A DNA stretch of 55,117 nucleotides from an uncultured Archangium sp. (GCA_903905455.1 CAIVGN010000036.1:1-55117); one strand, 5' to 3'. Positions 4,107-49,337 are shown, counted from the stretch's first letter. The notes: generated by a model from the sequence alone, not told the origin. A program made the numbers and translations.

Positions 4107-4753
4107 GGGGCGAACGACTTCCTGCGTGCCGTGAAGGAGAGGGCCACCACGGCCACCGCGGCCAGCGACCACGAGGCGAGGTGAAACACGGCGATGTGCG
4201 CCGCGTTGCGACCACACATCAGCTCGCCCAGCAGCGCCCCGGTGGTACCCACCGCCAGGCCGGCGGCGATGGCGCGCCCGGCGTTGAAGGCCATGCCTCG
4301 CAGTAGCAGCAGCGCCACCACCATCGCCGGCACCGCGACGCCGAGGTGCGACAGGGTGCACACCCACTCCGGCGACGTCGACAGCGAGCTCACCTGCGCC
4401 GGCCGGGTGCCGACCAGGGTCACCGCCGAGACCGCCGCCAGGGCCCACCCCCCGCGACGCCACCCCACACCCCCGGGCCGCGCCGCGCTCCACGCGAGCA
4501 GGGGACCGACGAGCGCGAGGGCCGCCAACGAGAGCCACCGCGCGGCGAGCGTCGCGGGCTCGGCGGCCCCCGAACCCAGCACCCCGACGGCGATCAACGC
4601 CGCGAAGCCCAGCGAGGCCGCGACGAGAAGAAGGGCGTGCGTCTTCCACGTGGTCCGCGGCCGGCCGAGCTCGGCCACCATCGCCGCGCGGGCCGCCTGC
4701 AGTGCGCTGAACGCGGGGGGTTCGGGGCGCAGGTTGGTCAGTTCATTCATCAC
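4103..4753 (-). CDS. NrsF/DUF1109-like membrane anti-sigma factor
   Basis: 216 aa. A soluble N-terminus of about 45 residues precedes six hydrophobic segments (about 43-63, 71-88, 100-118, 135-155, 163-180, 188-206). This size and layout, and the position directly after an ECF sigma gene, match NrsF-type (DUF1109) anti-sigma factors, in which the cytoplasmic N-terminus binds sigma. A Cys lies in the last loop (ELMCGRNAAH), where family members often carry conserved Cys residues. The GTG at 4753 gives a GTGA overlap with the sigma stop and has GGAG 8 nt upstream; the ATG at 4750 is an alternative. The family call rests on topology and context rather than strong motifs. Confidence 0.7.
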   Translation of the reverse strand: MMNELTNLRPEPPAFSALQAARAAMVAELGRPRTTWKTHALLLVAASLGFAALIAVGVLGSGAAEPATLAARWLSLAALALVGPLLAWSAARPGGVGWRRGGWALAAVSAVTLVGTRPAQVSSLSTSPEWVCTLSHLGVAVPAMVVALLLLRGMAFNAGRAIAAGLAVGTTGALLGELMCGRNAAHIAVFHLASWSLAAVAVVALSFTARRKSFAP

Positions 4754-10821: not shown

Positions 10822-11703
10822 ATGCGCGTCCACCTCGTCGACGGCACCTATGAGCTGTACCGGGCGCACTTCAGCCACCGGCCCGACCACGCCGCGCCCG
10901 ACGGGAAGGACCTCAAGGGCAGCCTGGGCGTGGTGCAGTCGCTGCTGGGGCTGCTCGCCGACCCGGCCGAGGCGGTGACGCACCTCGCAGTCGCCTTCGA
11001 CAACCCCATCACCTCGTTCCGCAACGAGCTCTTCGAGGGCTACAAGAGCGACGTCGGGGTGCCGCCCGAGCTGCGCGCGCAGTTCGACGACGTGGAGCGC
11101 GCGGTCTCGGCCCTGGGCGTGGTGGTGTGGAGCATGGGCGAGTTCGAGGCCGACGACGCCCTGGCCACCGCCGCGGTACGCTTCGCCCAGGACCCACGCG
11201 TCGAGCAGGTGCGCATCTTGACCCCCGACAAGGACCTCTCGCAGGTGCTGGCGGCCGAGCGCGTGGTGCAGGTGGACCGCATGCGCGAGCGGGTCATCAC
11301 CGAGGCCTCGCTGTGGGCCGACAAGAAGCTGCGCCCCGGCAGCGTGCCCGACTTCCTGGCGCTGGTCGGTGACGACGCCGACGGCATTCCCGGGCTCGAG
11401 GGGTGGGGTGCGAAGTCCACCGCCGACGTGCTCGCGGTGCACCCCCACCTCGACCAGATTCCCCCGGCGCTGGGCGACTGGAAGGTGAAGCCCCGCGGCG
11501 CCGAGAAGCTCGCGGCCTCGCTCGCGCGCGGGCGCGAGGCGGCGACGCTGTACCGCACGCTGGCGACGCTGCGCCTCGACGTGCCGTTGCCCCAGTCGCT
11601 CGACGACCTCGAGTGGAAGGGCGCGCCGCAGGCCGCCTGGCGCGCGTGGTGCGACGCGGTGGGCAGCACCTCGCTGCGCGACCGCCCGCGCCGCTGGCGT
11701 TGA
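10822..11703 (+). CDS. stand-alone 5'-3' exonuclease / flap endonuclease (PolI N-domain type)
   Basis: 293 aa. It matches the 5' nuclease domain found at the N-terminus of DNA polymerase I and in ExoIX-type proteins. Metal-binding acidic clusters: HLVDGTY (Asp7), EADDALATA (around 110-118), TPDKDLSQV (about 135-143) and VGDDADGIPGL, which opens the helix-3-turn-helix DNA-binding motif (GIPGLEGWGAKST). The positively charged FRNELFEGYKSD arch region is also present. The family removes RNA primers and 5' flaps. There is no polymerase domain. The stop abuts the convergent 107-aa gene in a shared TGATCA palindrome. Confidence 0.88.
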   Translation: MRVHLVDGTYELYRAHFSHRPDHAAPDGKDLKGSLGVVQSLLGLLADPAEAVTHLAVAFDNPITSFRNELFEGYKSDVGVPPELRAQFDDVERAVSALGVVVWSMGEFEADDALATAAVRFAQDPRVEQVRILTPDKDLSQVLAAERVVQVDRMRERVITEASLWADKKLRPGSVPDFLALVGDDADGIPGLEGWGAKSTADVLAVHPHLDQIPPALGDWKVKPRGAEKLAASLARGREAATLYRTLATLRLDVPLPQSLDDLEWKGAPQAAWRAWCDAVGSTSLRDRPRRWR

Positions 11704-13156: not shown

Positions 13157-15982
13157 TCAGTCCACCGAGTCGGGGGGCCGGGTGATCCACGCCGCGATGA
13201 ACAGGTCGATCTCCCCGCGCATGACCTCCTTGACGCGGGGCGAGCCTTCGCCGGTGCGCGGGTCTTCGACGCGGGGGCTCTTCCCCACGAAGTACCGGCG
13301 CACCTCGGCGCCGCCTTCGCCCTGGCCCGAGAGCAAGGTCATGGTCAGCGACTTGAGTTCCAGCACGCCCAGGGCGCCGCACAGCGTCACCTCGCGGCCG
13401 GTCTTCTCGTCGCGCGCCGAGACCTCGGCGCCGACCTTCTCCACGAAGCGGCCGAGGCGGCGCTTCACCTCGCGGCCCTCGAGGCGCAGCGTGTCGGGCA
13501 CCTCGAGCTCCGAGGCCGACGGCCGGTACACGCGCACGTAGGCCGAGAGCCGGGCGTCGTCGTCGATGCGCCGGTGCGTGCCGCGCTCACCCGAGAGGAA
13601 CCCGTACACCCCGGGCCCGTGGAGGTGGAGCACGGCGCGCAGCGGCTCGTCGCCCTCGGCCACCGGCTTCACGTCGTAGCCGCGGCGCTCGGCCCAGCCC
13701 CGGTACATGGTCACCAGCTCGCGCACCCAGGCCTCGCTCGCCTCGCCCGCGGCGCCGGCCTGGATCTCCAGCCACGCGTCGTCGACGTCCTTCCCGCCAC
13801 CGGCGGCGACCCGCGCCTCGGCGAGCCGCACTTCGCGCGCGGCCTCTTCCACGGCGCGCACTGCCCCCGCGAGCTGCAGCTCGCCCTTGGCGTCGCGGGC
13901 CCGCCGCCTCGCGACCTGGCAGAGCTCGCGCAGGCGATCGAGCTCGCCCAGCTGCGCGTCCATGGTGCGGAACGAGCGGAGCACCGCCGCGGCGCGCTCC
14001 CCGTCGTCCCAGAAACCGGGCGCCTGGCTCTGCGCCAGCAGCTCGCGCCGTCGCGACTCGAGCTCCGGCCGCTTTGCCGCGCTGGCCACCGCGGCCGCGC
14101 GCCCCACGCAGGCCTCGGCCTCCTGGGTCAGCGACTTCTGGTCGAACTTCTTGCGAGTCACCTGGCCCCCGGCCGCCGGCAACTGGGCCTGGGCCGTCGC
14201 CTCGCGCTCGCGGGTCACCTTGGGCTCGGCCACCGCGTGCACCGTGCCCTTGTGGGTCACCACCTTCACCGGGGTGCCCGGGGGCAGCGGGCGCCGGGCG
14301 ATCTCCACGGCCAGCGCCGCGGTCAGCGTCTTTTCGATCTCCCGCTGCAGGAAGCGCGCGCCGTGCGACGGCGAGTAGCCGCGCTCCACCAGCAGCTCCA
14401 CCACCTCGGGCGCGACCTCCACGTCGAGGTGCCGCGCGCGAATGCCCTCGCGCTCCAGCACCCGGCCCACCTCGCGCTGGGCGATGCGGCGGATCTCCAC
14501 CTTGCCCAGCGGGCGGAAGTGGCACAGCCCGTCGAAGCGGTTCAGGAACTCCGGGCGGAAGGTCGCGGCGATGCGGCGCTCGATGTCGCTGATCAGCTCC
14601 TCGTCACCCCGGCGCGCGGAGAAGCCGATGGTGCCCTCGCGGTACACCTCGGCGCCCACGTTGGAGGTGCACACGATGAGGGTGTTGTTGCAGGGCACCG
14701 TCTCGCCGGCGGCGTTGATGAACTGCCCCTCGTCGAAGAGCTGGAGGAACCGGTCGTGGCACTTGGCGTGCGCCTTCTCGAACTCGTCGAGCAGCAGCAC
14801 GGTGAACACGTGCCCGTCGAGCAGCTTGGTGAGCTCGCCGCGCTTGCCTGAGAGGCCCTGCGCCCAGGGGTTGCCGAACAAGACCTGCTCGTCCCCGAAG
14901 TCGGGGTAGTCGGCCATGTTGAGGCGCACCAGCCGGTCGGTGGAGCCGAAGAGGTACTCGGCGAGCAGCTTGGCCAGGTGCGTCTTGCCCACGCCGGTGG
15001 GGCCCGCGAAGAGGAACACGCCCAAGGGGCGCTTCGGGTTGTTGAGGCCCGCCTTGAGCAGGGCCACCGAGCGCAGCACCGCGGCCACGGCGTCGGTCTG
15101 GCCCAGCAGGCGGGTGCCGAAGAAGCGGCTCACCTCGTCCAGGTCCAGGGCCAGCGAGTCGTCGGCCATGAAGCGCGGCAGGCGGGTGGAGTTGCAGAAA
15201 CGGGCCAGCACGTCTTCGCTGGTGACCCGCTCGTGGGCGGCGCCGGCGGCCTCGGTCACCGTCTCGCGGAGCAGCTCGATGGCCTTGCGCGGCAGTCGCT
15301 GCGCGAGGAGGAACTTCGCCGAGAGCCGCAGCGCGAGGTCGCACGCCGAGCCGTCGATGGGGATCTCCTGCTCGACCTCCAGCTCCTCGGCGACGCGCCC
15401 GAGGATCCACCGCGCGCGCTCCATGGACGGCTCGTGCACCATGAACAGGTGGAGCTTCTCGGCCAGGGCCTCGTCGCTGCGCAACAGCTCGTGGGCTGCC
15501 CGGGCGTCGGTCTCGAAGATGAAGTGCACCCGCCCGGTGCGCAGGGCGCGGATCAACACCGGCACCAGCGAGCTGCCGCGCACCTGCCCCACGTCGCGCA
15601 TGAAGAGCACGGTGTTGGGGTGCTGGGCCGTCTCCTCGATGAACTCCTCGAGCAGCTCGGCGGCGTCCTTGGGGTTGCTGGTGCGCGCGAAGATGCCGGC
15701 GGCGGTCATCTCGAGCACCCGGGCGTCGAGCAGCGCGGCGGGCGCGTTGCCCTGGGCGATGCGCCGCGCGAGCTCCTGCACCACCGCGCTCTTGCCCACG
15801 CCCGATTCCCCGGCGAGCAACGGCGCCTTGCCGCCGCGGGTCAGCAGGGTGGCCAGCTCGGCGGCGGCCTGGTCGAGGCCGTAGCCCTCGGGGAGCCGGT
15901 GGGCCGCGGCCAGGGCCGTCAGGTCACGCTCGATGAGGGTCTGGACCGAGTCTCTGGGGGGCTGCCTGGTCTTCTTCGCCAT
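13157..15982 (-). CDS. ClpA/ClpB-type AAA+ unfoldase fused to a release-factor-2-like (PCRF) region
   Basis: 941 aa. NBD1: Walker A GESGVGKS (58-65) but a Walker B of VLFMRD with no following Glu, so hydrolysis there is doubtful. NBD2: Walker A GPTGVGKT (327-334), Walker B LLLDE (396-400), sensor-1 TSN (449-451), arginine finger FLNRF (479-483), sensor-2 GAR (541-543), all intact. There is no ClpB middle coiled coil. From about 619 to 815 the sequence follows bacterial RF2: LLAQSQAPGFWDD (family: L.dP.lWdD), helical PCRF region, then IQAGAAGEASEAWVRELVTMYRGW and GVYGFLSGERGTHRRI. RF2 has AGAGGTEA..W..ML.RMY.RWA and YGyLk.E.GvHRLvR at these points. The RF2 GGQ domain is not present. Residues 816-941 are unassigned. 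Family assignment of both halves is firm; ribosome targeting is inference. Confidence 0.85.
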   Translation of the reverse strand: MAKKTRQPPRDSVQTLIERDLTALAAAHRLPEGYGLDQAAAELATLLTRGGKAPLLAGESGVGKSAVVQELARRIAQGNAPAALLDARVLEMTAAGIFARTSNPKDAAELLEEFIEETAQHPNTVLFMRDVGQVRGSSLVPVLIRALRTGRVHFIFETDARAAHELLRSDEALAEKLHLFMVHEPSMERARWILGRVAEELEVEQEIPIDGSACDLALRLSAKFLLAQRLPRKAIELLRETVTEAAGAAHERVTSEDVLARFCNSTRLPRFMADDSLALDLDEVSRFFGTRLLGQTDAVAAVLRSVALLKAGLNNPKRPLGVFLFAGPTGVGKTHLAKLLAEYLFGSTDRLVRLNMADYPDFGDEQVLFGNPWAQGLSGKRGELTKLLDGHVFTVLLLDEFEKAHAKCHDRFLQLFDEGQFINAAGETVPCNNTLIVCTSNVGAEVYREGTIGFSARRGDEELISDIERRIAATFRPEFLNRFDGLCHFRPLGKVEIRRIAQREVGRVLEREGIRARHLDVEVAPEVVELLVERGYSPSHGARFLQREIEKTLTAALAVEIARRPLPPGTPVKVVTHKGTVHAVAEPKVTREREATAQAQLPAAGGQVTRKKFDQKSLTQEAEACVGRAAAVASAAKRPELESRRRELLAQSQAPGFWDDGERAAAVLRSFRTMDAQLGELDRLRELCQVARRRARDAKGELQLAGAVRAVEEAAREVRLAEARVAAGGGKDVDDAWLEIQAGAAGEASEAWVRELVTMYRGWAERRGYDVKPVAEGDEPLRAVLHLHGPGVYGFLSGERGTHRRIDDDARLSAYVRVYRPSASELEVPDTLRLEGREVKRRLGRFVEKVGAEVSARDEKTGREVTLCGALGVLELKSLTMTLLSGQGEGGAEVRRYFVGKSPRVEDPRTGEGSPRVKEVMRGEIDLFIAAWITRPPDSVD

Positions 15983-16048
15983 GGGGAGGTTGCTCCTACT
16001 GACGTGCGACGCCGCGCTCGCTGACGCCGCGCGAAAGCTGGCACAGCC

Positions 16049-17318: not shown

Positions 17319-18041
17319 GTGACTGCCCTCACCTTCACGAACGAAGTGTCGCTGCCCAGTTGGCCGAAATCGATCGGGCGCCCGAAGGCCCGTGCTACGG
17401 TCCCCTCCGCTTTGGCCACAGACGACCTCACGCTCGTCGAGCGCGTTCGCACCGGAGATCAGCGGGCGTTCAAGCTCCTCGTCGAGCGCTATCAGCGCAA
17501 GGTGTTCTCCGTCGCCCTCGGGATGCTGAAGGACAAGGAAGAGGCGCGCGACGTCGCGCAGGAGGCCTTCATCAAGGTCTACCGCTACCTCGACCACTTC
17601 AAGGGCGACGCCAGCTTCTACACGTGGCTGTACCGCATCACGGTCAACATCTGCATCGACGTGATCCGCAAGAAGGGCTCGGGTCGCGGCCCGAACCACG
17701 TGGAGTTCGACGAGGGCGTGCAGATGGACGTGGCCGAGGCGAACATCGGGGCGCTCGGCTCCCGGCTGGGCACCAACCCCCAGAAGTCGGCCCTCCGCGC
17801 CGAGCTCGCGCAGCGCATCACCGAGGCCATCGGGCAGATCCCCGAGGCGCACCGGCAGATCCTCCTCCTGCGGGAGGTCGAGGGCATGAGCTACGAGGAC
17901 CTGAGCCGCACGCTGAAGATCCCCAAGGGCACGGTGATGTCCCGGCTGTTCCACGCGCGCCTCAAGATGCAGAAAATCCTCAATGAGTACCTCGAGTTGG
18001 ACGAGTCGCGGCAGGGTGTTGGTCCTGAAGAAGGTTCCTGA
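17319..18041 (+). CDS. ECF-type RNA polymerase sigma factor (RpoE-like)
   Basis: 240 aa from GTG 17319. An N-terminal tail of about 35 residues, Pro/Ser-rich, precedes sigma2 (about 37-118: DLTLVERVRTGDQRAFKLL, EEARDVAQEAFIKVYRYL, FYTWLYRITVNICIDVIRK) and sigma4 (about 170-225: HRQILLLREVEGMSYEDLS, LKIPKGTVMSRLFHARLKMQ). These are textbook RpoE-like blocks. A later start (TTG near 17413) would remove the tail and cannot be excluded. It is followed after 48 bp by a membrane anti-sigma-like gene, an exported protein and an outer-membrane barrel, the usual architecture of an envelope-stress regulon. Confidence 0.92.
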   Translation: MTALTFTNEVSLPSWPKSIGRPKARATVPSALATDDLTLVERVRTGDQRAFKLLVERYQRKVFSVALGMLKDKEEARDVAQEAFIKVYRYLDHFKGDASFYTWLYRITVNICIDVIRKKGSGRGPNHVEFDEGVQMDVAEANIGALGSRLGTNPQKSALRAELAQRITEAIGQIPEAHRQILLLREVEGMSYEDLSRTLKIPKGTVMSRLFHARLKMQKILNEYLELDESRQGVGPEEGS

Positions 18042-18089
18042 AAATATCGCTGGTCGGCGTCCGTTTCGAAGCACCAGGCGGTGAATCCC

Positions 18090-18689
18090 ATGAAGAACCC
18101 AGCGCGCGAAAAGTTCCTCCCCATGCTCTCGGCCTACGTCGACGGCGAGCTGACCCCCGAAGACCGTCAGTTGCTCGAGCAGCACCTCACCAACAACAAG
18201 GAGTCTGCCGGCCAGGTCGCCGACTTCCGCGCCGCCGACGGGCTCATGCGCCACGCCCTGGAGATGCAGGCCGACGGGCTCGACTGGAAGGGCTTCGCCG
18301 ACGACGTGATGTCGAAGCTCACGCCCGAGAAGTTGCCGCTCTTCGAGCGCCTCAAGCTCACGCTGGGCGAGATGTTCACCTACCAGCGCGGGCCGCTCAT
18401 CGCGGGCTTCGTCGGGGCGGCGGTGGCGGTGGCGATCGTCGTGCCGGTGAGCCTGCGGTACGCGACCCCAGACGGCTACGGCGCGGCCAGGATGCAGGTG
18501 CAGACGGTCTCGGCCGACGGCGACCCGCGCATCCAGCCGGTGGTGATGGAGACCGAGACCGGCGACGCCATCATCTGGGTCGTGGAGTCGACGCCCGACG
18601 GCGGCAAGAAGAAAAAGGACGGCGAGCACTCGGAAGAGACGCTCACCGAAGAGCCCAGCACCCCCGACGGCAAGCAGGGGGAGCTGTGA
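18090..18689 (+). CDS. membrane anti-sigma-factor-like protein lacking the zinc motif
   Basis: 199 aa from ATG 18090 (GTG 18081 is in frame; GGCGGTG sits 6 nt before the ATG). Residues 8-55 look like the N-terminal anti-sigma domain (LSAYVDGELTPEDRQLLEQHL), but where HxxxCxxC zinc ligands normally follow, it reads NNKESAGQ, so no zinc is bound. One membrane segment lies at about 106-123 (LIAGFVGAAVAVAIVVPV), followed by a periplasmic tail with a Lys/Asp/Glu-rich, repetitive end. Directly after an ECF sigma gene, it is almost certainly its antagonist. The last 4 nt (GTGA) overlap the next start. Confidence 0.78.
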   Translation: MKNPAREKFLPMLSAYVDGELTPEDRQLLEQHLTNNKESAGQVADFRAADGLMRHALEMQADGLDWKGFADDVMSKLTPEKLPLFERLKLTLGEMFTYQRGPLIAGFVGAAVAVAIVVPVSLRYATPDGYGAARMQVQTVSADGDPRIQPVVMETETGDAIIWVVESTPDGGKKKKDGEHSEETLTEEPSTPDGKQGEL

Positions 18690-33873: not shown

Positions 33874-34812
33874 ATGCTCACCCTCAAACGATGGTTGTGT
33901 TTCGCGGCGTTGGCTGCCGCGAGCCTGGCGTTGGCCCAGGCCCCCCGGCCGTCCGTGATGCCGTTCCCGCTCGAGTTCAAGCGCACCCCCTCGGGGTTCT
34001 CCAAGGAGGACAAGGAGGCGATGCAGCGCGACTACACGCGGCTGCTGCGGCTGGCGGGTGGGCAGGTGCCCGACTTCGCGCGCTACGACCTCGCGTTGAA
34101 GGAGCTCAAGCGGCAGGACTGCGAGCGGGAAGACGAGTGCCTGGTGCAGCTGGCGAAGAAGTCGGAGGCGCTCTACGCGCTGTACGCGAGCGTCGACTCC
34201 ACGCTCGAGGGCGCGGTGCTGGTGACCGGCCGCGTGGTGCGTGACGACGGCAAGGTGGCGTGCGCCTCGCAGAGCGTGAAGCTGGCCCGGGGCAAGGACC
34301 CGTTCAAGGACATCGCCCGCAACGCGCTGACGCAGCTGTTCAGCCAGTTGAAGGTGGGCGAGCTCGAGGCGGTGCGCAAGGTCGAGGTGGCGAAGGCCGA
34401 GCCGGTGAAGGTGGAGCCGGTCAAGGTGGTGCCGCCGGTCGTCACGGATCCGCCCCCGGCGATGCCTCCGTTGGTGACCGAAGATTCGGGCGCAGGTGCA
34501 CGCGCGGCTGGCCAGGGGCTGGTGTTCGGTGGCGCGGGGATCGCGGTGGTCGGCGCTGTGCTCGCGGCCGTCGGTGGCCTCAATGGTTCCGCGCTGGGGC
34601 TCCAGAATGAGCCGGTGCCGTTCGCGAAGCTCGACGCACTCACCTCGGCGCGCACGTTGACCACGGTGGGGTTCGTGGGGCTCGGCGTCGGCGCGGTGAG
34701 CGCGGCCGTGGGCGCGATTCTGTGGGGCACGGCGGGTGCGGCCCCGGTGACGCAGGTTTCAGTGGTGCCCACGGTGGGCGGCGGTGTCGTGCAGCTGGGA
34801 GGGCGGTTCTGA
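33874..34812 (+). CDS. exported protein with C-terminal membrane-type helices, unknown function
   Basis: 312 aa from ATG 33874, which gives signal peptide MLTLKRWLCFAALAAASLALA; the earlier TTG at 33853 would spoil it. The mature part has a two-Cys segment (CEREDECLVQLAK, a pattern like other myxobacterial proteins that sum several factors), then a Val/Pro/Lys-repeat linker (KAEPVKVEPVKVVPP), and two Gly/Ala-rich hydrophobic segments near 218-236 and 266-286. No family recognised. Its stop overlaps the next start as TGATG, so it is coupled to the propeller lipoprotein gene. Confidence 0.6.
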   Translation: MLTLKRWLCFAALAAASLALAQAPRPSVMPFPLEFKRTPSGFSKEDKEAMQRDYTRLLRLAGGQVPDFARYDLALKELKRQDCEREDECLVQLAKKSEALYALYASVDSTLEGAVLVTGRVVRDDGKVACASQSVKLARGKDPFKDIARNALTQLFSQLKVGELEAVRKVEVAKAEPVKVEPVKVVPPVVTDPPPAMPPLVTEDSGAGARAAGQGLVFGGAGIAVVGAVLAAVGGLNGSALGLQNEPVPFAKLDALTSARTLTTVGFVGLGVGAVSAAVGAILWGTAGAAPVTQVSVVPTVGGGVVQLGGRF

Positions 34813-37130
34813 TGCGCTCGGTATTCTTGTCGGTGATGTGCGTGGTGTTGGCCGGGTGCAACTTCGGCGCGACGACCTGTTCGACGACGGCTGAGTGTAC
34901 GGGCGCGGCGACGTGCATGTCCGGGTTCTGCGTGTTGCCGGAAGATGCGGGCGCAGGCGGTGGCGGCGGGTCAGGGGGTGGCGCGGTGACCGGCGGTGGT
35001 GCGGGTGGTGGGAGCACCATGGGCGGTGGCGGAGGGAGTGTTGGTGGTGGCGGCGGTGGCGCGACTGGGTGCATCGACCGAGGTGGTTGTGTGCTTGGGG
35101 AAGAGTGCGTTGCACCGATGTGCAAGCCGGTGGGGTTGCGGATTCGGCTGCTCAATGCGTCGGTGACGGTCGGCTACACGCCGGTGACGGTCAGCGGCAT
35201 CATCGAGAGGACTGACGGTACGTCTGCGACGGGCGTGAACTTGCCCACGGCTGTGGGGCTCACGTTGCTGCCGGCCGCGCCCCTGGAGACGTCGTCGTCG
35301 GTCTCAGTCGCGGCTGATGGGAACTTCAGCTTCACGGTGAACGCGGCGCCTGACGTGGTGACTCAAGCTGACACGACCATCGTGCTGAAGGCTTCGCCTG
35401 CAACGGATGCGACGTTGATGGTGGCGGTGCGGACGCTGCCGCCGACGGTGACGGTGGAGGTGCTGGCGGCGGATGCGGGGGGGAGGCCGACGAGTTGGGG
35501 AAACCCGACGGCGTACCGGCGAGACGAGGTGGCGCTGGTGAAGGTGAGCGCGACGGAGAGCATCGAGGTGAGGGCGCTGAAGGTGGGAGATGCGGAGGCG
35601 ACGCCGGGTGGAGCGTGCGGGTGCAACCTGAGCGACCCGATGTGCGCGTGCTTCCAGGCGGAGTTGTGGAAGCCGACGTTCGGGTTGATGACGGGGACGA
35701 TGCCGCTGCAGGTGTTCGCGGTGAATGCGCGTGGAGTGGGGGTGGATGGGGGCGTGGCGGTGGATGGTGGGAGCCCGGTGGTGGCGGTGACGCGGTTGCG
35801 GTGGACGGTGACGCCGTCGGCTTCTGGCTTCGGAATTCGGGCTGCGCCTGTCGTCGATGATGAGGGGACTGTGTACGTGGGCGATCAGGCCAGTTCGACG
35901 GTCGGAACCATCTACGCATACCGCGCCATTGGCAAAGCGAAGCCGGGCTGGGACGCCGGGGTGAGCGTGGGTTCGGTGACGAGCCTGGCGTTCTGGCGAG
36001 GCCCGGACCCGAGCGCGGGCACCACCGCGGATGACGTCGTGTACTTCAACGCGAACAACGCAACGAGCGGGGTGCTGAGCGCGGTCTCAACGGCAGGAGC
36101 GCTGTCTGCGGGGCGATGCGACAGTTTTACTTCGGCGCCTACGGCAATGGTCGGGCTGAATACCTACTCGGCGATTGCCATCGCGGAAGAGAGCGGAAGC
36201 AACGGGACCGGCACGCTGTCGGCCGTCGCGACGTTCAATGCGCAGGGCGCGACGCTTGGTGCGGCGTGTATGTGGAACCCGGCCGCGTCGCTCGCACGGG
36301 CTACTCAACCGATGTTGGAGCAAATTGCCGTTTCTAGCCCGGCAGCATCGGACACTCAGGGTGTTCACAACCTGATGGTGACAAGACCCGCGGGCTCCTC
36401 GAATCAGTACCTCATCGACGTTGCTCGCATCGCTGGCTTGGCAGTTCAGCGTCGCACCATCACCCCGCCCAATAGCTTTGATCTCGCGGCGACGGTCAAT
36501 ACCGTCGCGAGCGGGAGCAGCAGTGCCTCCATGAACGGCCTGGCATTCATCGGGGCTGCGGCACCAGGCCAGTTCGGCCCATTCGCATTGGCAGGTACTC
36601 TCGCTCCTACCGGTCTCTGGAAGGTGTCGTCGACTGCGACTGCCAGCAAGTTCCTCGATTCAGTCTCAGCGCCGGTCGTCGACCGAACAGGCCGCATCTG
36701 GTCGCACTCGAACGGCAACATCAACTCGACGGACTTTGGTACCAGCGACACCAGCGTGCCGTTCACTGGCTCCGTGGTTGCATCCCCAGTGTTGACGCAG
36801 AATGCCGGCGGCTTCGCCGACCGAATCTTCGTGGTCAACACGAGCGGCACGCTGGCCAGCATGAAGTTGACCGACGCAGCGACCGAGTGGTCCGGTTCGA
36901 CGGGGCTCAACTCCGTCTCCGCGAGCCCGGCCTTCGACTGCAACCGCCTCGCGAGCACGGCCGCCAAGGCGGCCACAGGCATCCTCTACATCGCCAGCGG
37001 CAACGGGAAACTCGCCTCCATCATCGTCGACTCGCCGAAGTTGGACATCGCGGCGAAGTGGCCCAAGTACCAGCGCGACGCGTTCAACTCGGGCAACACC
37101 TTCCTCAACTTCGACAACTGCGCTCCTTGA
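34812..37130 (+). CDS. PQQ-propeller-like lipoprotein, paralog 1
   Basis: 772 aa from ATG 34812; the lipobox VLAGC gives Cys16. Two Cys-rich clusters (TTCSTTAECTGAATCMSGFC; CIDRGGCVLGEECVAPMC) flank a 40-residue Gly/Thr/Ser linker that probably spans the surface layer. The mid part holds Ig-like strands (VTVEVLAAD), and the rest repeats in a PQQ/BamB-type propeller manner: EGTVYVGDQ..GTIYAY, DRIFVVNTSGTLASMK, GILYIASGNGKLASI and the closing KWPKYQRDAFNSGNT, an element typical of PQQ-like propellers. The next gene is its paralog, with blocks of near-identical DNA. Surface lipoprotein of unknown ligand. Confidence 0.7.
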   Translation: MRSVFLSVMCVVLAGCNFGATTCSTTAECTGAATCMSGFCVLPEDAGAGGGGGSGGGAVTGGGAGGGSTMGGGGGSVGGGGGGATGCIDRGGCVLGEECVAPMCKPVGLRIRLLNASVTVGYTPVTVSGIIERTDGTSATGVNLPTAVGLTLLPAAPLETSSSVSVAADGNFSFTVNAAPDVVTQADTTIVLKASPATDATLMVAVRTLPPTVTVEVLAADAGGRPTSWGNPTAYRRDEVALVKVSATESIEVRALKVGDAEATPGGACGCNLSDPMCACFQAELWKPTFGLMTGTMPLQVFAVNARGVGVDGGVAVDGGSPVVAVTRLRWTVTPSASGFGIRAAPVVDDEGTVYVGDQASSTVGTIYAYRAIGKAKPGWDAGVSVGSVTSLAFWRGPDPSAGTTADDVVYFNANNATSGVLSAVSTAGALSAGRCDSFTSAPTAMVGLNTYSAIAIAEESGSNGTGTLSAVATFNAQGATLGAACMWNPAASLARATQPMLEQIAVSSPAASDTQGVHNLMVTRPAGSSNQYLIDVARIAGLAVQRRTITPPNSFDLAATVNTVASGSSSASMNGLAFIGAAAPGQFGPFALAGTLAPTGLWKVSSTATASKFLDSVSAPVVDRTGRIWSHSNGNINSTDFGTSDTSVPFTGSVVASPVLTQNAGGFADRIFVVNTSGTLASMKLTDAATEWSGSTGLNSVSASPAFDCNRLASTAAKAATGILYIASGNGKLASIIVDSPKLDIAAKWPKYQRDAFNSGNTFLNFDNCAP
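35491..35830. repeat. nucleotide-level duplicate block shared with 37751-38090
   Basis: The run at 35491-35559 is almost identical to 37751-37819 (same offset of 2260 bp), and homology continues past a less-conserved patch to about 35830. Third codon positions here are mostly G, unlike the C-rich usage elsewhere in this gene. Confidence 0.75.
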
Positions 37131-37155
37131 GTTGCAGTTGAGCCGTGGAGCGGGA

Positions 37156-39375
37156 TTGATTCGTTTCGTCTCGTGCAGCCTGTTGTTCGCCGTGGTGGCC
37201 GGTTGTTCCTCGAGTGAGCCTGTGACTGATGCGGGCGCAGGTGGTGGCACCGCGACCGGCGGCGGCTCCGCCCTCGGCGGCGGAGGGGGCGGCGTCATCG
37301 GTGGTGGCTCCGGTGGAGGCGCCATGACTCCCACCTGCACCACGGAGGCGGACTGCGCGGTGGGTGAGGCCTGCGCAGCGCAGGCATGCCAGGCGGTGCC
37401 GCTGCAACTTCACCTCTCGACGCAGTCCCTTCAACTCGGGATCCAACCGGTCAACGTGGACGGAGTGGTGGAGAGACAAGACGGCTCCCCTTCGACGGGC
37501 GTGCACCTGCCTCGGTTCGTAGCGTTCACGCGGCCCACGGGTGGCGTGCTCGAGAGTCCCGCATCGCCCGCGATCATCGCCGGAGACGGTTCCTTTCATT
37601 TCGTCGTGCAGGCGGCCATCGGGGTCACCGCGAGTGCGAGCCTCGTGGCCACCGCGGCACCCGCGTCGCCGACCACCTTGACGGTGGAGATTCGGACGAT
37701 GCCTCCGACGGTGACGGTGGAGGTGCTGCCGGTGAGTGGGACGCGGCCTGCGAGTTGGGGGAACCCGACGGCGTACCGGCGAGACGAGGTGGCGCTGGTG
37801 AAGGTGAGCGCGCCGGAGCTCCTCGAGGTGAGGGCCCTGAAAGTGGGAGACGCGGAGGCGACGCCGGGTGGCGCGTGCGGGTGCGCCGTGGGTGACCCGA
37901 CGTGCGCGTGCTTCCAGGCAGAGCTGTGGAAGCCGACGCTCGCCGCGGTGACGGCGACGGTGCCGCTGCAGGTGTTCGCGGCGAATGCGAATGGAGTGGG
38001 GGTGGATGGGGGCGTGGCGGTGGATGGGGGGAGGCCGGGCGTGGTGGTGACGCGGGTGCGGTGGACGGTGACGCCCAGCGGCGACGCCTTCAGGTCGGCT
38101 CCCGTGCTCGATGATGAAGGCACCGTCTACGTAGGCGACCAGCGCAACACGACGAACGGGAACATCTACGCGTACGACCCCAGGGGCACTGTGAAGGCGG
38201 GCTGGGACGCCGGGGTGAGCGTCGGTTCGGTGACGAGCCTGGCGTTCTCTCGCGGCGTCGATGCCGCTGTCGGAGTCACCGTCGATGATCGCGTCTACTT
38301 CAACGCCAACACGACCAGTGGCGGCATGCTGCGCGACGTCAGCGTCGGCGGCGTGGTCTCCTCGGGTTGGTGTGATTCCAGCACGGGCAATGTGACTTCG
38401 CCTGTCCGGCGCAGCGACTCGGCGATGGCCCTGGTGGCGGAGGCCTCGAGCGGCGTCGTTTCTGCCATTGCGCACTTCGGGGCTGTGGGCGGCACCAGCG
38501 GTGCCGCGTGCATGTGGAACGACGGCGCCGGTGTGTCTCGCGCGCTCAAGGCGTTCACGGACGACACGAGGCCGACGCCTGCCGGCAGCCTGGTCCAGGG
38601 CACCCACAATCTGATCGTCGCCAACACGGCGCCAGCCGGACCATTTCCCGCGCTCCTCTACGTGGGGCCGGCAAATGGGCTCACCGTCAGGCAGCGCGAC
38701 ATCGTCGCTTCCAACGCCTTTGGCTCGACCGTCGCGAACCTCAATTCCCCGACCATCGGAACCGATCCCGCATCATCCGCGAACGGGATCTCGCACCGCG
38801 GAGTGGCATCGGCTGGTTCGCTCGGGGAGTTCACCCTCGCCGCGAACATCACGGCCGGAGGTGGCCTCTGGCGATTGAGTCCTCGCGACAGTCGATACCC
38901 GGGCTCGAGCGTGTCTCCTGCCGTCGTCGGGCGGACCGGTGTCGCGTGGTCTCATGCTGGCGGCTTCCTCAACTCGACCGACTTCGGCACCCGCGACACC
39001 AGCGTGCCGTTCCCCGGTGCCGTGGTGGCCTCCCCGGTGCTGACGCAGGACGCCGCCGGCTTCGCCGACCGAATCTTCGTCGTGAACACCCTCGGAGACC
39101 TGGCCAGCATGAAGTTGACCGGAACTGCGATCGAGTGGGCCGGTGCGACGGGACTCACCTCCGTCTCCGCGAGTCCGGCCTTCGACTGCAACCGCCTCGC
39201 GAGCACGCCCGCCAAGGCGGCCACGGGCATCCTCTACGTCGCCAGCGGAGACGGGAAACTCGCCTCCATCATCGTCGACTCGCCGAAGTTGGACATCTGG
39301 GCGAAGTGGCCCAAGTACCAGCGCGATGCGTTCAACTCGGGCAACACCTTCCTCACCTTCGACAACTGCCCCTGA
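37156..39375 (+). CDS. PQQ-propeller-like lipoprotein, paralog 2
   Basis: 739 aa from TTG 37156, preceded by GGAG at 5 nt; TTG 37132 and 37138 are in-frame alternatives. Lipobox VVAGC follows a short signal. It has the same order as paralog 1: Gly-rich linker, Cys cluster (CTTEADCAVGEACAAQAC), Ig-like region with the ALKVGDAEATPGGACGC block, propeller strands (GTVYVGDQ, GNIYAYD, DRIFVVNTLGDLASMK, GILYVASGDGKLASI) and KWPKYQRDAFNSGNT at the end. A short GCTTC/GAAGC hairpin follows the stop (39382-39394). Function as for paralog 1. Confidence 0.7.
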   Translation: MIRFVSCSLLFAVVAGCSSSEPVTDAGAGGGTATGGGSALGGGGGGVIGGGSGGGAMTPTCTTEADCAVGEACAAQACQAVPLQLHLSTQSLQLGIQPVNVDGVVERQDGSPSTGVHLPRFVAFTRPTGGVLESPASPAIIAGDGSFHFVVQAAIGVTASASLVATAAPASPTTLTVEIRTMPPTVTVEVLPVSGTRPASWGNPTAYRRDEVALVKVSAPELLEVRALKVGDAEATPGGACGCAVGDPTCACFQAELWKPTLAAVTATVPLQVFAANANGVGVDGGVAVDGGRPGVVVTRVRWTVTPSGDAFRSAPVLDDEGTVYVGDQRNTTNGNIYAYDPRGTVKAGWDAGVSVGSVTSLAFSRGVDAAVGVTVDDRVYFNANTTSGGMLRDVSVGGVVSSGWCDSSTGNVTSPVRRSDSAMALVAEASSGVVSAIAHFGAVGGTSGAACMWNDGAGVSRALKAFTDDTRPTPAGSLVQGTHNLIVANTAPAGPFPALLYVGPANGLTVRQRDIVASNAFGSTVANLNSPTIGTDPASSANGISHRGVASAGSLGEFTLAANITAGGGLWRLSPRDSRYPGSSVSPAVVGRTGVAWSHAGGFLNSTDFGTRDTSVPFPGAVVASPVLTQDAAGFADRIFVVNTLGDLASMKLTGTAIEWAGATGLTSVSASPAFDCNRLASTPAKAATGILYVASGDGKLASIIVDSPKLDIWAKWPKYQRDAFNSGNTFLTFDNCP
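37751..38090. repeat. nucleotide-level duplicate block shared with 35491-35830
   Basis: Second copy of the block described at 35491-35830. A further near-identical block covers the ends of both genes (about 36990-37120 and 39250-39370), while the middle parts (about 36080-36700 against 38330-38940) are clearly more diverged. Confidence 0.75.
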
Positions 39376-39381
39376 GAGGGG

Positions 39382-39394
39382 GCTTCCCCGAAGC
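39382..39394 (+). terminator. weak hairpin after paralog 2
   Basis: GCTTC and GAAGC with a CCC loop, between GGGG runs, then TCTCT. An alternative fold pairs CCCCG with CGGGG. Too short to call a terminator firmly. Confidence 0.25.
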
Positions 39395-39443
39395 GGGGTC
39401 TCTGCGCTAGGCGCTCCCCGCGGTCATCACTGGCGGGGGCGTC

Positions 39444-42293
39444 ATGTACGTGCAGCGAATTGGGGTTCTGTTTTTTCTGGTCGTCGTCGCGGGCTGTGAG
39501 CAGAAGCGGGGCGCCTGCCACAACGAGACCTGCACCACCGAGCAGCGCTGCGACGAGACCACGTACCACTGCGTCGACGACCTCCGCCCCGTGCTGAGCC
39601 TCACTCCGCTGACCGAGGTGATCACCGCGGCGACCTTCACCGTCACCGGTTTCGTGAAGGACGACCTCCTGCTCACCAACGCCGAGTGGCGGGCCGGAGA
39701 CCGCGCCTGGACCACCATCGACGGCGTCGACGTCGACGGCGGCTTCGTCCTCACCATCGACGCCCCGTTGGTCGACGCTGAGCTGGTCGTCGTCTCGGCC
39801 CGTGCAAACGACGTACACGGCGAGGTCACCGCGCATACCGAGGTGAAGGTCGATCGCGTCGGTCCTGCGCTGCTCCTGAAGGTCCCGGACGAGAACTCGG
39901 TGCAGGGGGCTGACAGCTTCCAGGTCGACGTCATTGCGCACGATGGCAGCGGCTCCATCGCCTCCTTCAGCCTCCACGGCGCGCCCGTGGCGAACCCGGT
40001 GAACGACGGCCGCGTCTCGACGACGGTCACCGTGCCTGCCAACGCGAACCACCTCGCGATTCCCGTGCTGGCCACGGCCACCGACGCGCGCGGCAACGCC
40101 ACCACGAAGACCTTCACCTTCTTCGGTGACCGCGTCGCCCCGGAGGTGACCTTCACTTCACCGGCGCTCAATCAATTCATCACCACCGCGACCTTCACCG
40201 TCGAGGTCGTGGTTGTAGAGCCCGGCGCGCTCCAGGGCGTCGTCTTCCACGTCGGCACCACCGACGTGCCCGGCGTCATGGGCGCCAACGGCCATTGGAC
40301 CGCCTCGCTGCCTGCCGGCGAAGTGGAGCAGGACGCGATCATCACCGTCACGGCTACCGACGACGCGGGCAACGTCGGCAGCGCCTCGCGCACGGTGCGC
40401 ATCGACCGCGTGGTGCCCACCATCAGCATCACTGCGCCGACGGCCTCTGGCCTCTTCCGCGCCGCGGTACCGGTCTCGGTGCAGACCTCCCCGGGCACCG
40501 CCACGGTCAGCGCCACGCTCGAGGGGCAGACCACGATGCTCACCGGCGGCCCAACGACGTGGACTGGTTCGCTCGCGGTGCTCTCGCACGACTACGCGCC
40601 GCTCGCGGTGCAGGTGCGCGCGCTCGATCTCGCCGGGAACGAGGGCACGGCCACGGTGACCATCGGGGTCGACACCATCGCGCCGGTCATCACCTTCACC
40701 GCCCCGGGCTCGATGCAGAAGTTCAACGCGCTCGATTTCTCGGCCACCCCGGAGGTCACCTCCACGTGGACCGTCGTGGACGGTGATGCCCAGGCCGCGA
40801 CCACCACGGTCAACGGCGCTGCCTCGACGGCGCTCAGCTTCGCGCGGGCCACCGTCGCCACGGACAACCCGACCACCTACACCACCACCGTCACCGCGGC
40901 CGATCGTGCGGGCAACAGCACCACCGCCAGCCGCAGCTACCTCGTCGACCGGGTTGCGCCCTCCATCACCACCTGGACCCCCGCGGCGAACGCCCGCAAC
41001 GTCGACCCGCGCGTGAGCGTCGTCACCTTCTCCGAGCGCGTCGACGTCGGCGCCAACGCCACCTCGCCGGCGCTGACCATCAGCGGGCTGGCGAACCCGG
41101 CGGCCTCCGCCTGGGACGCCGCGCACACCACCTACACGCTGGACCTCGATACCTTGCCCTACCGGGTGCTCGACCTCGGCGTGTCGGCGGGGCTGCAGGA
41201 CGGGTTCGGAAACCTGCTGGTGGTGCCCGCCTCGCGGCGCGTGCACACGGCGACCGGGTACAAGACGAGCATCACCGTCCCCATCGGTCCCGCGACGGGG
41301 CTCGTCGCCACCGAGGCCATCGCCTCGTCCGACCCCGACGGCATCGCCACCATCCTCGTGCGCACCTCCAGCAACACCACGCCCATGCGCATCTTCAAGG
41401 ACACGGGCGGTACGTTCACCGAGATCACCACCACGCTGCTGCCCGAGCGCTGGAGCGTCAATTCGTGGAACGTGGTCAACCCCACCACGCTGGCCAGCGA
41501 CCATCGCTTCGCCGTCAGTTCCTTCAATTCGAACGGTGGCACGTGGTCGACGCAGGCCTTCCTCAACGGCGTGGTGGAGAACTCGACGGTCCCGGAGACC
41601 ACCAGCAAGACCTTCGTGACCAGCCCTGCCTCGTTCTGCGAGGGCACGACCACGCCCGTCGCCTGGGTGGCCGGATCGGCCTACACGCGGGGCACCTCGT
41701 TGCTCACGCTGCCGTGGTCACCCACGGCGGTCAGCCCCTCCCGCAACGGGTGGATTGGCTACGACGCCTATTCGAGCGCGGCGTCGCTGCGCTGGGTGCA
41801 CTTCAACTGCGCGCAGGTCGTGGTGTTGGGGCGCACGTCCTGGCTGTCGTCGTCGGCGGGCTTCGAGTCGAGCTCAGCCGGGTGGGACGTCAGCGGGGCG
41901 CTGACGCCCAACGGCGACTGTCACGGCGTCGCATGGACCACCTCGGCGAGCCGCTACATCGCGTTCCAGGCGATGGGCGACTGCACCACCGGGAGTACGG
42001 CCCCCCATTGCCTCGGCACCTTCCCAGCAGTGGCCACGGCGCCGACCGAGGCGCGGCTCGCGCCGTTCGCGGGCAATGGCGCGAACTCGATGCTGATGAC
42101 GTTCAAGAACTCGGCCGGGGCCTACGTGCTGGCGCAGATGCTCCCCGGGGTCTGCACCATGAGCAACGCGACCACGCTGCTGACCTCGGCCCCCGCGCAG
42201 CCCTACCGCTCGCACATGCCCGTGCAGATCGGCAACCGGCCCGCGATGCTCGTCGTCACCTTGCTGGGCGAGACCAAGCTGCTGGTGCCCTGA
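39444..42293 (+). CDS. lipoprotein with bacterial Ig-like repeats
   Basis: 949 aa. Signal peptide with lipobox VVAGC (Cys18), then a Cys cluster (GACHNETCTTEQRCDETTYHC, EGF/defensin-sized). About five Ig-like domains follow, each ending in a V/D-R/T-hhAP block (VDRVGPALLL, FGDRVAPEVTF, RIDRVVPTISI, VDTIAPVITF, VDRVAPSITTW) with TATDxAGN in between, and an SbsA-type Ig (NARNVDPRVSVVTFSERV) at 515-600. The C-terminal 300 residues are Ser/Thr-rich with paired Cys and unknown fold. Probably a surface stalk or adhesin. It ends 7 bp from a convergent gene. Confidence 0.75.
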   Translation: MYVQRIGVLFFLVVVAGCEQKRGACHNETCTTEQRCDETTYHCVDDLRPVLSLTPLTEVITAATFTVTGFVKDDLLLTNAEWRAGDRAWTTIDGVDVDGGFVLTIDAPLVDAELVVVSARANDVHGEVTAHTEVKVDRVGPALLLKVPDENSVQGADSFQVDVIAHDGSGSIASFSLHGAPVANPVNDGRVSTTVTVPANANHLAIPVLATATDARGNATTKTFTFFGDRVAPEVTFTSPALNQFITTATFTVEVVVVEPGALQGVVFHVGTTDVPGVMGANGHWTASLPAGEVEQDAIITVTATDDAGNVGSASRTVRIDRVVPTISITAPTASGLFRAAVPVSVQTSPGTATVSATLEGQTTMLTGGPTTWTGSLAVLSHDYAPLAVQVRALDLAGNEGTATVTIGVDTIAPVITFTAPGSMQKFNALDFSATPEVTSTWTVVDGDAQAATTTVNGAASTALSFARATVATDNPTTYTTTVTAADRAGNSTTASRSYLVDRVAPSITTWTPAANARNVDPRVSVVTFSERVDVGANATSPALTISGLANPAASAWDAAHTTYTLDLDTLPYRVLDLGVSAGLQDGFGNLLVVPASRRVHTATGYKTSITVPIGPATGLVATEAIASSDPDGIATILVRTSSNTTPMRIFKDTGGTFTEITTTLLPERWSVNSWNVVNPTTLASDHRFAVSSFNSNGGTWSTQAFLNGVVENSTVPETTSKTFVTSPASFCEGTTTPVAWVAGSAYTRGTSLLTLPWSPTAVSPSRNGWIGYDAYSSAASLRWVHFNCAQVVVLGRTSWLSSSAGFESSSAGWDVSGALTPNGDCHGVAWTTSASRYIAFQAMGDCTTGSTAPHCLGTFPAVATAPTEARLAPFAGNGANSMLMTFKNSAGAYVLAQMLPGVCTMSNATTLLTSAPAQPYRSHMPVQIGNRPAMLVVTLLGETKLLVP

Positions 42294-46046: not shown

Positions 46047-49000
46047 TTACGGCATGCAGTTCTGGGTGTACTGAATCTCGAGCGGCACGCCGGGCTGCGG
46101 GGTCGCGGTGCTGTTGAACTTGATGGAGTTCGACGCCGCGTCGTAGGTCCACGTGGTGGGGCCGGACGGCACGACCTGGCCGTTGACCTTCACCACCACC
46201 TGGGTGGTCGACTGGTCCGGTGAGTTGTTCAGGTAGAACTGGGTGCGGAAGCCGAAGGCGGTGCGCCCGAGGTTCTGCAGCGTCGACGACCAGTTGGTGT
46301 TGCAGATCTCGTCGGACACGCCCGAGGTGTACTGGACGATGGGATCGTAGCGGCCGGAGTTGGCGCCCGTCTCGTCGTAGGTGCAGCTGCCCGGCGCCGT
46401 GCTCGCGCGCGGGGTGACCGCGCTGAAGGTGAAGTACGAGAGCCGCTGGAAGCCTTTCACGTTGACCAGCAGGTTTTGGTAGTAGCTCACCGGCTGCGGC
46501 GACTGGTCGGTGGCATCCGAGATGACCACCACCGCGAGGTTGGCGTCGGTGCGCAGGAAGCCCGCGTTCTCGCTCGACACGATGGGCGGGGTGAGGGCGA
46601 GCACCGCGGTCGCCAGCGGCGTCTCGCCACCCGAGCCGTCGGTGCCCACGTTGACCAGCCGCGAGAAGACGCCGGAGACGGCCGGCGTGGTGGGCTTGAC
46701 GTACTTGAGGGTGCTGGTGGCGTCCTTCACGAGGCGACCGCCCCAGCCCTTGCTGTTGTTGTTCACGCAGCCGATGCCGGGGATGCCGCACTCCATCTGC
46801 TGCTCGGTCGTGGTGGTGACGCCGATCTGGTAGTCGACGTTCGCCGCGACGGCGTACTGGATGAAGCTCGAGAAGTTGGCCGCGAGCGCGTTCTGCTTGT
46901 CCTGCATCGAGCACGAGTCATCGACCACCAGGAGGATGTCGGCCTTGGGCTGGAGGTCCTGCGTATAGGTGTCGACCTGCACGCCGGTGGTGTCGCTGCG
47001 GCCCTGGAGGCCCACGAGGTAGGTGATGCTCTGGCCGTTCTGCAGGGCGGAGATGGACACCGCGCCCGAGTCGTTGCCCACGTCGATGGGCACGTAGCGC
47101 GCCTGGAAGGTGACGGGGGCGCCGCCGCCGTTGATGGTCAGGCCGCCCATGGGGATGTTGGGGGTCGAGGTGAGGTGGAACTCGGGGCACGCGGTGGTGC
47201 CGGGGCAGTTGGGCCCGCCCGGGGGCTGGCCACCGGCGGCCTGCATGCCAAAGGCGGTGATGGTCACCGGGGCGCTGCAGGTGTTGTAGATGTTGAAGTC
47301 GCGCGAGGCCGAGCGGCAGCCGAGCTTCACGGTGCCGAAGTCCATCGGGTCGGGCGTCACGGTGAGGCACGAGGGGCCGACCGAGGTGCTCAGCGGGATG
47401 TTGACGCGGGGCCGCGCGGCCGAGGTCGAGTTGAAGACCAGCTGGCCGGTGAGGGTTTGCAGCGTGGTGGGCGTGGTGCCGGTGGGGGCGACGCGGACCA
47501 CGACCTGGAAGCTCTCCTGCGGCTGCAGCTCCTTGTCGACGATGTTGCCGCCGACGATGGAGTACGCGAGGTCGCTGCCGGCGCCCAGCTCGATGCCCGA
47601 GAGGTAGCAGACCTCGCCGGCGGTGACCGAGTTGTTGGTGATGGTGATGGGCAGGTCCTTCTGCGTGCCCGGGGTGACCAGGCCGAAGTTGGCGTTCGCG
47701 GGCGAGGTGACGAAGGTGCAGGGGGGCAGCTGCTGCACGTCGGCGACGATGTTCACGGTGATCGCCGGCTCCGAGGGATCGTTGGAGTACAGCGTGAAGG
47801 TCGCGCTCTTCATCCCGATGGACTGCGGCTTCAAGGTGACGCTCAGGTCGACGAAGTTGAGGCCGGCGATGGCCTGCAGCCCGTTGGCCTGGGAGTAGGG
47901 CGAGGCGAGGTCGACGACGAACTCGTCGGCGGCGGTGCCGGGGCCGGGCACGAAGTCGAAGAACGGCGCGCCGTAGCTGCCGTCGCTGGCGAGCTGGCCC
48001 AGGTAGAGGTTGGAGGTGGGGTCAGGCATGGGCGGCCGCGAGCCGATGTTCTGCACGTTGATCTTCCGCACCACCGCGAAGTTGGTGTTGCCGGGGAAGA
48101 AGCCGACGCGCCCGAAGGACAGCGTGGGCCGGGGCGAGACCTTGATGCGCGGGCCGCCGCCGGTGCAGTTGAGGGTGATGGTGCCCGAGGGGTTCTGGGT
48201 CAGGCCGGTGCGGAAGGTGAGGGTGCCGGTGCGCGCGCCGAGCTGCGAGGGGTTGCAGGCGATGCGCATGGACGTGGGCACGCCGTTGGGCGCGACGGTG
48301 AACCTGGACGCGTCCTGGCCGGCGGGCACCGCGTGGTAGAAGTCGGCCGAGTTGGTCGAGGTCACCTGGGTCAGCACGATGGGCACCGACGCGGGGTTGA
48401 TGAACACCACGTCGCGCAGCGTCTCCGAGCCGGGGTTCACGTAGCCGTAGTTGATGGTGGTGGGGCTCCAGGTGAGCGTCTCGGTGCTGCCGTGGCCGCG
48501 CAGGGTGACGGTCTTCTCGGGGCACTCGCCGGCGCCGCGCATCACCACCTGGGCTTCGTACTGGCGCTCCTCGGTGGGGCTGAAGGTGACGACCACGTCG
48601 GTCGACGACATCGCGGGCACGGGCACGGCGCCCATGGGGGTGTTGACCTGGTAGCCGAAGTTGAGCGCGTCGGCGCCGGTGATGGGGCCGGTGTTGCCCG
48701 AGGCCGGGAGGCTGGTGGGGTTGGCGAAGCCGACGGCGAAGGGCAGCGTCTCGCCGATGGGCGTCTTGCCGAAGTCGATGACGTCGGGGAGATCGCAGGA
48801 GCCCTTCTCGCCCTGGCCCAGCAGGGTGATGACCGCGGTGGCGTCTTCGAAGCGCGTGCCCTCGGTGGTGAGGAGCAGCTTCGAGAGGTAGTTCCCCTTC
48901 AGGCCGCGGGGCGTGAAGTTGAGGATGAATTCCTGCTGCGACGAGGGCTGGAGCACCATGGTGTCGAACTCGGCCTCGAACACCGAGGTCGCGGTGGCGG

Positions 49001-49304: not shown

Positions 49305-49337
49305 GGGAAACTCCAGGTGGGGAAAGAAGGCGCGCAT

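Follow-up and report, generated by a model that had tools for sequence, protein, structure and literature searches.

On the minus strand of a 55,117-nucleotide (nt) stretch of DNA from an uncultured Archangium sp. (GCA_903905455.1, CAIVGN010000036.1:1-55117; hereafter the window), a single gene at 13157..15982 joins a Clp-type AAA+ unfoldase motor to a degenerate copy of peptide chain release factor 2 (RF2). The architecture of the encoded 941-amino-acid (aa) protein is new and is built from two known families. The motor consists of a first AAA+ domain (D1) with a lost Walker B motif and a second one (D2) with complete motifs; the RF2-like part lacks both the GGQ triplet and the loop that reads stop codons. 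We propose, tentatively and at somewhat less than an even chance of being right, that this is an unfoldase of the ClpA/ClpC type in which the dead C-terminal RF2 copy replaces the N-domain as the chooser of targets, perhaps at ribosomal or termination complexes.

An RF2 copy without its catalytic and codon-reading motifs

The relationship of the C-terminal part to RF2 is seen at several levels. Pfam PCRF matches residues 642-804 (E 2.8e-19) and the NCBIfam prfB model residues 630-805 (E 5.4e-26), with prfA far behind (4e-7), while a phmmer search against PDB sequences returns RF2 (E 3e-17), together with a weak match to the last 44 RF2 residues. When a profile of 18 fusion RF regions was compared by hhalign with one of 17 true RF2 sequences, residues 10-360 of the genome's own RF2 were covered (E 1.4e-29). 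The predicted structure of residues 608-941 (predicted local distance difference test score, pLDDT, 86; predicted template modelling score, pTM, 0.78) contains the helical domain 1 and domain 2; superposition with E. coli RF2 (1gqe) aligns 312 of 334 residues (Z 23.7, root-mean-square deviation 4.7 A), and Foldseek gives E 3e-18. This model is not independent of homology, because RF2 rows stood in its alignment. The initial annotation of this DNA had followed the likeness from the PCRF helices only into the beginning of the RF core; the RF2 homology holds, as does the start at these helices, and it reaches on to the RF2 C-terminus.

The four pieces of the RF2-like part differ in how much they retain. 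A linker (residues 581-615; 14138..14242, all coordinates of the gene being on the minus strand) leads to a helical bundle resembling RF2 domain 1 (616-730; 13793..14137), recognized by Pfam PCRF, by hhalign and by the helices of the model, and carrying the QAPGFWDD motif. In the domain 2-like piece that follows (731-830; 13493..13792) the joint alignment pairs RF2 VRISPYDS..RRHTSF with ID..DDARLSA, a deletion of six residues in the aligned members, and therefore the SPF stop-codon loop is deleted; IDDD (13556-13567) stands where RF2 has VRISPYDS. The GGQ-domain equivalent (831-886; 13325..13492) has (L/A)GRFVEK or EGAYLQR at RF2 GAGGQKVNK, with LGR (13448-13456) at the triplet in the window, and the 22-residue helix that trails this domain in RF2 is deleted. 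Finally, the C-terminal part (887-936; 13175..13324), RRY...VEDPRTG...V.RGEID.FIAAW, is the most conserved RF piece: EDPRTG...V.RGEID.FI corresponds to RF2 KDxRTG...V.DG.ID.FI. RF2 WGSQIRSY has become GGAEVRRY, and therefore the switch-loop Trp is lost.

Among the 31 aligned fusion members used for all motif counts given here, none has a GGQ triplet in the RF part (0/31), AGR, EGA, EGT and others standing in its place, and a PF00472 search of the genome matched RF1, RF2 and an ArfB-like protein and left the fusion unmatched. The initial annotation had concluded that the GGQ domain itself is missing. That statement has to be replaced by a narrower one, in which the GGQ motif is absent and the domain apparently retained in shortened form: hhalign runs on through the domain, with low column confidence, and the model, with RF2 rows in its alignment, places strands at its positions 225-235, 243-251 and 257-262 and a helix at 266-278, that is, a strand-strand-strand-helix fold at residues 832-885. 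A model from fusion sequences only gives strand-strand-helix at the same place, with low confidence. The RF2 part keeps domains 1, 2 and 4, and a shortened domain 3 is predicted; neither the SPF loop nor GGQ is left. An isolated GGQ at residues 605-607 (14162-14170) of the linker, previously judged to be out of context, is indeed incidental; it is present in only 3/31 members, all of the window's genus, and we reject it as a functional motif.

In a tree, the RF part is monophyletic (100/100) and separated from true RF2 by a branch of 2.29 changes per site, and because of this length its source within RF2 cannot be told. Nor did the net charge of this part point to a function.

A ClpA/ClpC-type motor probably driven by its second ring

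Pfam identifies AAA at residues 55-138, AAA_lid_9 at 188-251, AAA_2 at 318-484 (E 2.5e-34) and ClpB_D2-small at 492-574, and the NCBIfam ClpA model spans residues 19-574 in one stretch. We aligned the motor with three Clp proteins of the same genome, named from architecture and motifs: L002 (ClpA-like), L003 (a further Clp) and L004 (ClpB-like), to which the fusion is about 30-33% identical. Of these, L003 (C167) is itself a long Clp ATPase, with a frame of 1034 aa, without the middle domain and with an MGF loop.

The earlier expectation of a first module probably dead in hydrolysis and an intact second one agrees with the motifs. D1 (18-270; 15173..15931) keeps its Walker A (GESGVGKS, residues 58-65, 15788..15811; G-x-x-GVGK[ST] in the aligned members), whereas its Walker B is degenerate, LFMRDVG (126-132; 15587..15607) standing against LFIDEIH in the genome's own ClpA; in place of DE, 30/31 members have x-R-D and 1/31 has PD. 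Furthermore, D1 has two arginine-finger positions, and Glu occupies one of them. In D2, made of a large part (318-484; 14531..15031) and a small domain (492-574; 14261..14509; ClpB_D2-small E 2.7e-12), Walker A GPTGVGKT, Walker B LLLDEFEK, the sensor-1 Asn (TSN), the Arg finger (FLNRFD) and the sensor-2 GAR are complete in 31/31. The D2 pore-loop region reads FGNPWAQGL (369-377; 14852..14878) in place of GAPPGYVGF, so that GYVG has become xWA[QP], with Trp373 invariant (31/31); this change predicts an altered grip on the substrate.

Where ClpA and ClpC have their ClpP-docking loop, every member carries an [ILMV]GF tripeptide (452-454; 14621..14629), distributed as IGF 17, LGF 7, MGF 5 and VGF 2 of 31, while the flanking residues vary. 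The genome's own ClpA has LGF there and its ClpB a gap, and a single ClpP gene turned up in this genome. Since this invariant loop is shared with the genome's own ClpA and not with its ClpB, coupling to ClpP is likely, a point absent from the initial annotation. The first PDB matches of a full-length model are ClpC and ClpC-ClpP complexes; that model is of low confidence (pLDDT 63, from 14 sequences) and was used for the Clp match only. The motor might instead act as a ClpP-independent remodeller, a ClpB-like or subunit-splitting ATPase that docks by its RF2 part and works on ribosomal complexes without proteolysis, and the altered pore loops, a D1 without Walker B and a bulky C-terminal domain on the D2 side would suit such a role. 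The tripeptide speaks against it, being kept in all 31 members within an otherwise variable loop and absent from the genome's own ClpB, and we consider this alternative very improbable.

The N-domain of ClpA, ClpB and ClpC docks substrates and adaptors. In the fusion this domain is missing, because the protein starts directly at D1, at about residue 18, with no Clp N-domain before it, and Clp_N is absent from the 25 best Pfam matches.

One frame, conserved across a family

The frame is open from the ATG at 15982 to a stop at 13157, with AGGAG at 15993-15997, 10 nt upstream of the ATG; the G+C content of its third codon positions (GC3) is 0.97 and its composition is strongly coding. The initial annotation, which named no strand, was right in describing one continuous 941-codon frame, and its combination of two AAA+ modules with an RF2-like region in one protein is borne out by Pfam, NCBIfam and phmmer.

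We sampled 195 Myxococcota genomes, and 85/195 match the fusion at a threshold of E 1e-75, a few of these matches being fragments at contig ends; about 80 of the 195 carry the fusion, mostly in a single uninterrupted frame. The fusion is widespread in the window's family, most genomes of which carry one full-length, stop-free copy at 60-91% identity (search P0001); across the family it is single-copy and has no internal stops. Outside that family it was found in one genome of the sample only, belonging to a second family, and the other sampled Myxococcota lack the fusion as well as any close stand-alone RF part. In a scan of 84,980 genomes, full fusions occur only in Myxococcota records among the matches listed, and the close copies among them are in Archangium, Myxococcus, Myxococcaceae and Archangiaceae records. 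A search of plasmids gave no match at E 1e-80; in phages the sole matches were to the RF part, at about 26% identity, which is what an RF2 encoded by phages would be expected to give.

Among close relatives, the ratio of nonsynonymous to synonymous substitution rates (dN/dS) stays well below 1 throughout the gene. It reaches its minimum in the RF C-terminus and its maximum in the GGQ-domain equivalent, and all RF pieces have values of roughly 0.02-0.3. In the C-terminal RTG region, mean pairwise identity is 76% and dN/dS is about 0.02 in the window's genus. These ratios indicate that the whole fusion is under purifying selection.

Two copies are damaged. In genome G151 (L129, ~4141-4149) a 1-nt indel within the CGCGCGCG run of the linker splits the fusion, a sequencing error or a recent mutation. 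In genome G025 (L128:8100-9284) the AAA+ region is deleted: a fusion-like N-terminus, MARKRSATAASPERDLTELARAG, runs straight into the RF part, whose frames are broken. The latter was the sole candidate for an ancestral stand-alone RF part and was rejected as such; it is a relic that has lost its AAA part, because the N-terminus of the fusion is still present and the frames are broken.

These two copies are also what could be said for an artefact, whether a clp and a prfB gene joined by a frameshift or in assembly, or a pseudogene in decay. No frameshift lies between the AAA+ and RF parts in about 80 other genomes, which carry the fusion intact in one frame at the identities given above, several of them on single contigs, and every domain is under purifying selection. 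With the fusion conserved across genomes we reject an artefact, whose probability we regard as negligible.

Gene neighbourhood and the genome's own translation factors

Elsewhere the genome encodes an ordinary RF1, an RF2 with SPY and GGQ, and an ArfB-like GGQ protein. The RF2 gene has the classical CTTTGAC programmed frameshift site (L006:1464-1470) after a short leader frame. In addition, NFACT-domain (RqcH-type) matches, which come in pieces, are present in 38/40 relatives. Because the genome has RF1, RF2 and the ArfB-like protein, and relatives have the NFACT matches, the fusion adds to normal termination and rescue and is no substitute for them.

The search of the loci for neighbours common to the window's genus and other genera found none, and hence no operon clue to function. 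RNase J lies downstream of the fusion in 7/20 loci, 88 and 117 nt away in two (L112, L122) and 3-7 kb away in five (L108, L121, L126, L111, L113), and YajQ and RimO come next in several of these; this context is suggestive only. Within the window, an ECF (extracytoplasmic function) sigma factor followed by an anti-sigma-like zf-HC2 protein (17319-18689), encoded on the opposite strand from the fusion, is shared across the genus, and a stand-alone 5'-3' exonuclease of the polymerase I N-domain type (10822-11703) is conserved there. Further away are three consecutive large frames of 802, 747 and 949 aa (34722-42293) with no NCBIfam matches, and a 1096-aa protein (46047-49337) that contains a choice-of-anchor D domain and weakly matches CglD and MIDAS (metal ion-dependent adhesion site) adhesins.

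Proposed function

AAA+ proteases normally find their targets through N-domains and small adaptors. Since the Clp N-domain is missing from the fusion, the RF2 part is likely a targeting module, and a stripped RF2 fused to a motor suggests that the motor is aimed at the translation machinery. In the mechanism that we propose, a hexamer powered by D2 would be brought by its pseudo-RF2 domains to translation complexes, whether at the ribosomal A site, at the stalk base or through the usual protein partners of RF2. Docking would take place without reading of the stop codon and without release of the peptide; the nascent chain, or a factor bound there, would then be pulled out, and the unfolded chain would pass from the D2 motor to ClpP for degradation. 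The most specific form of this proposal, a single-chain ribosome-quality-control protease in which a codon-blind, non-hydrolysing RF2 mimic guides a Clp motor to stalled or terminating ribosomes and feeds ClpP, appears to us rather unlikely as it stands.

Several observations weigh against the proposal. The codon-reading SPF loop and the Trp that senses the decoding centre are both lost, so that binding to the A site in the manner of RF2 is not assured and the protein may bind in another way. GYVG is missing from the D2 pore loop, and the C-terminal extension of 330 residues sits on the D2 side, which is the side of ClpP docking and could be obstructed by it. Finally, no conserved operon with translation genes was seen at the fusion loci.

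This last point, together with the loss of the residues that directly serve termination, the fastest evolution in the GGQ-domain equivalent and the very long branch from true RF2 (2.29 changes per site), would fit a pseudo-RF2 exapted as a protein-binding or scaffold domain unrelated to ribosomes. Such a domain would have succeeded the lost N-domain in docking adaptors or substrates or in stabilizing the hexamer, and the motor would degrade ordinary substrates. We take this possibility seriously while doubting it somewhat: the entire RF2 outline is kept, from domain 1 to the C-terminal RTG region with its high identity and very low dN/dS, which is beyond the needs of a generic scaffold.

The same complete outline in the model could also serve in the control of termination, the pseudo-RF2 binding RF2 itself or RF2-binding proteins (RF3, PrmC, stalk proteins) and the motor removing or degrading them. 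Domain 1, the part of RF2 that faces the GTPase, is retained, which favours this reading. The GGQ loop, the target of PrmC, is gone, however, and no genetic link was seen at the loci, which makes termination control improbable. The target may be the ribosome, a partner of RF2 or something else.

Comparison with known systems

With ClpA and ClpC the fusion shares two AAA+ domains, the D2-small domain, the [ILMV]GF tripeptide and the lack of a long ClpB middle domain; it differs from them in having no N-domain, in the loss of the D1 Walker B, in xWA[QP] for GYVG and in the RF2-like C-terminal extension of about 330 aa. It has the AAA+ core of ClpB and a similar hidden Markov model (HMM) score, but no middle domain, and it carries the ClpP-type loop that ClpB lacks. 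With PrfB (RF2) it shares homology over the whole length, the domain order, QAPGFWDD, RTG...GEID.FI and the predicted fold, in accordance with the RF2 likeness first noted; unlike PrfB, it is joined to a Clp motor and has no SPF loop, GGQ, switch-loop Trp or 22-aa helix.

Proteins derived from release factors that have non-standard roles include PrfH and ArfB/YaeJ, the former being among the fold matches of the RF model. These keep GGQ and hydrolyse peptidyl-tRNA, whereas the fusion lacks GGQ and brings an ATPase of its own. By analogy only, Vms1 with Cdc48 in eukaryotic ribosome quality control is likewise an RF-fold protein working with an AAA+ unfoldase; the two are separate proteins, and the RF superfamily concerned (aeRF1) is unrelated. 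The Vms1 family and its CDC48-interaction motif have been described in a survey of release factor evolution in which the word Clp does not occur (PMC6514570).

We found no description of the fusion, of GGQ-less release factors or of an RF2 joined to AAA+ domains in a literature search that left subscription journals mostly outside, so that a description elsewhere is possible; the fusion is apparently undescribed, as had been supposed. In M. xanthus, eight clpA/B/C genes are reported (PMC11423568), and a studied Clp gene, MXAN_4832, adjoins other Clp genes (PMC6617876). The Clp cluster of a 9.0 Mb Myxococcus genome lies at 5.93-5.96 Mb, far from the fusion at 1.77 Mb; the fusion is thus probably not MXAN_4832, as judged by position and not by locus tag.

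Together, this evidence describes a translation factor, seemingly stripped of both its activities, that has been fused to a motor and kept across a family with normal RF1, RF2 and ArfB-like proteins and, for the most part, NFACT-domain matches. The gene is present in Myxococcus, which is open to genetic manipulation. Should the RF2 part bind translation complexes, the protein would be a bacterial, one-chain counterpart of the teamwork between RF-fold proteins and Cdc48 in eukaryotic ribosome quality control. Even without a link to translation, it would clearly exemplify the conversion of a release factor to a different role.
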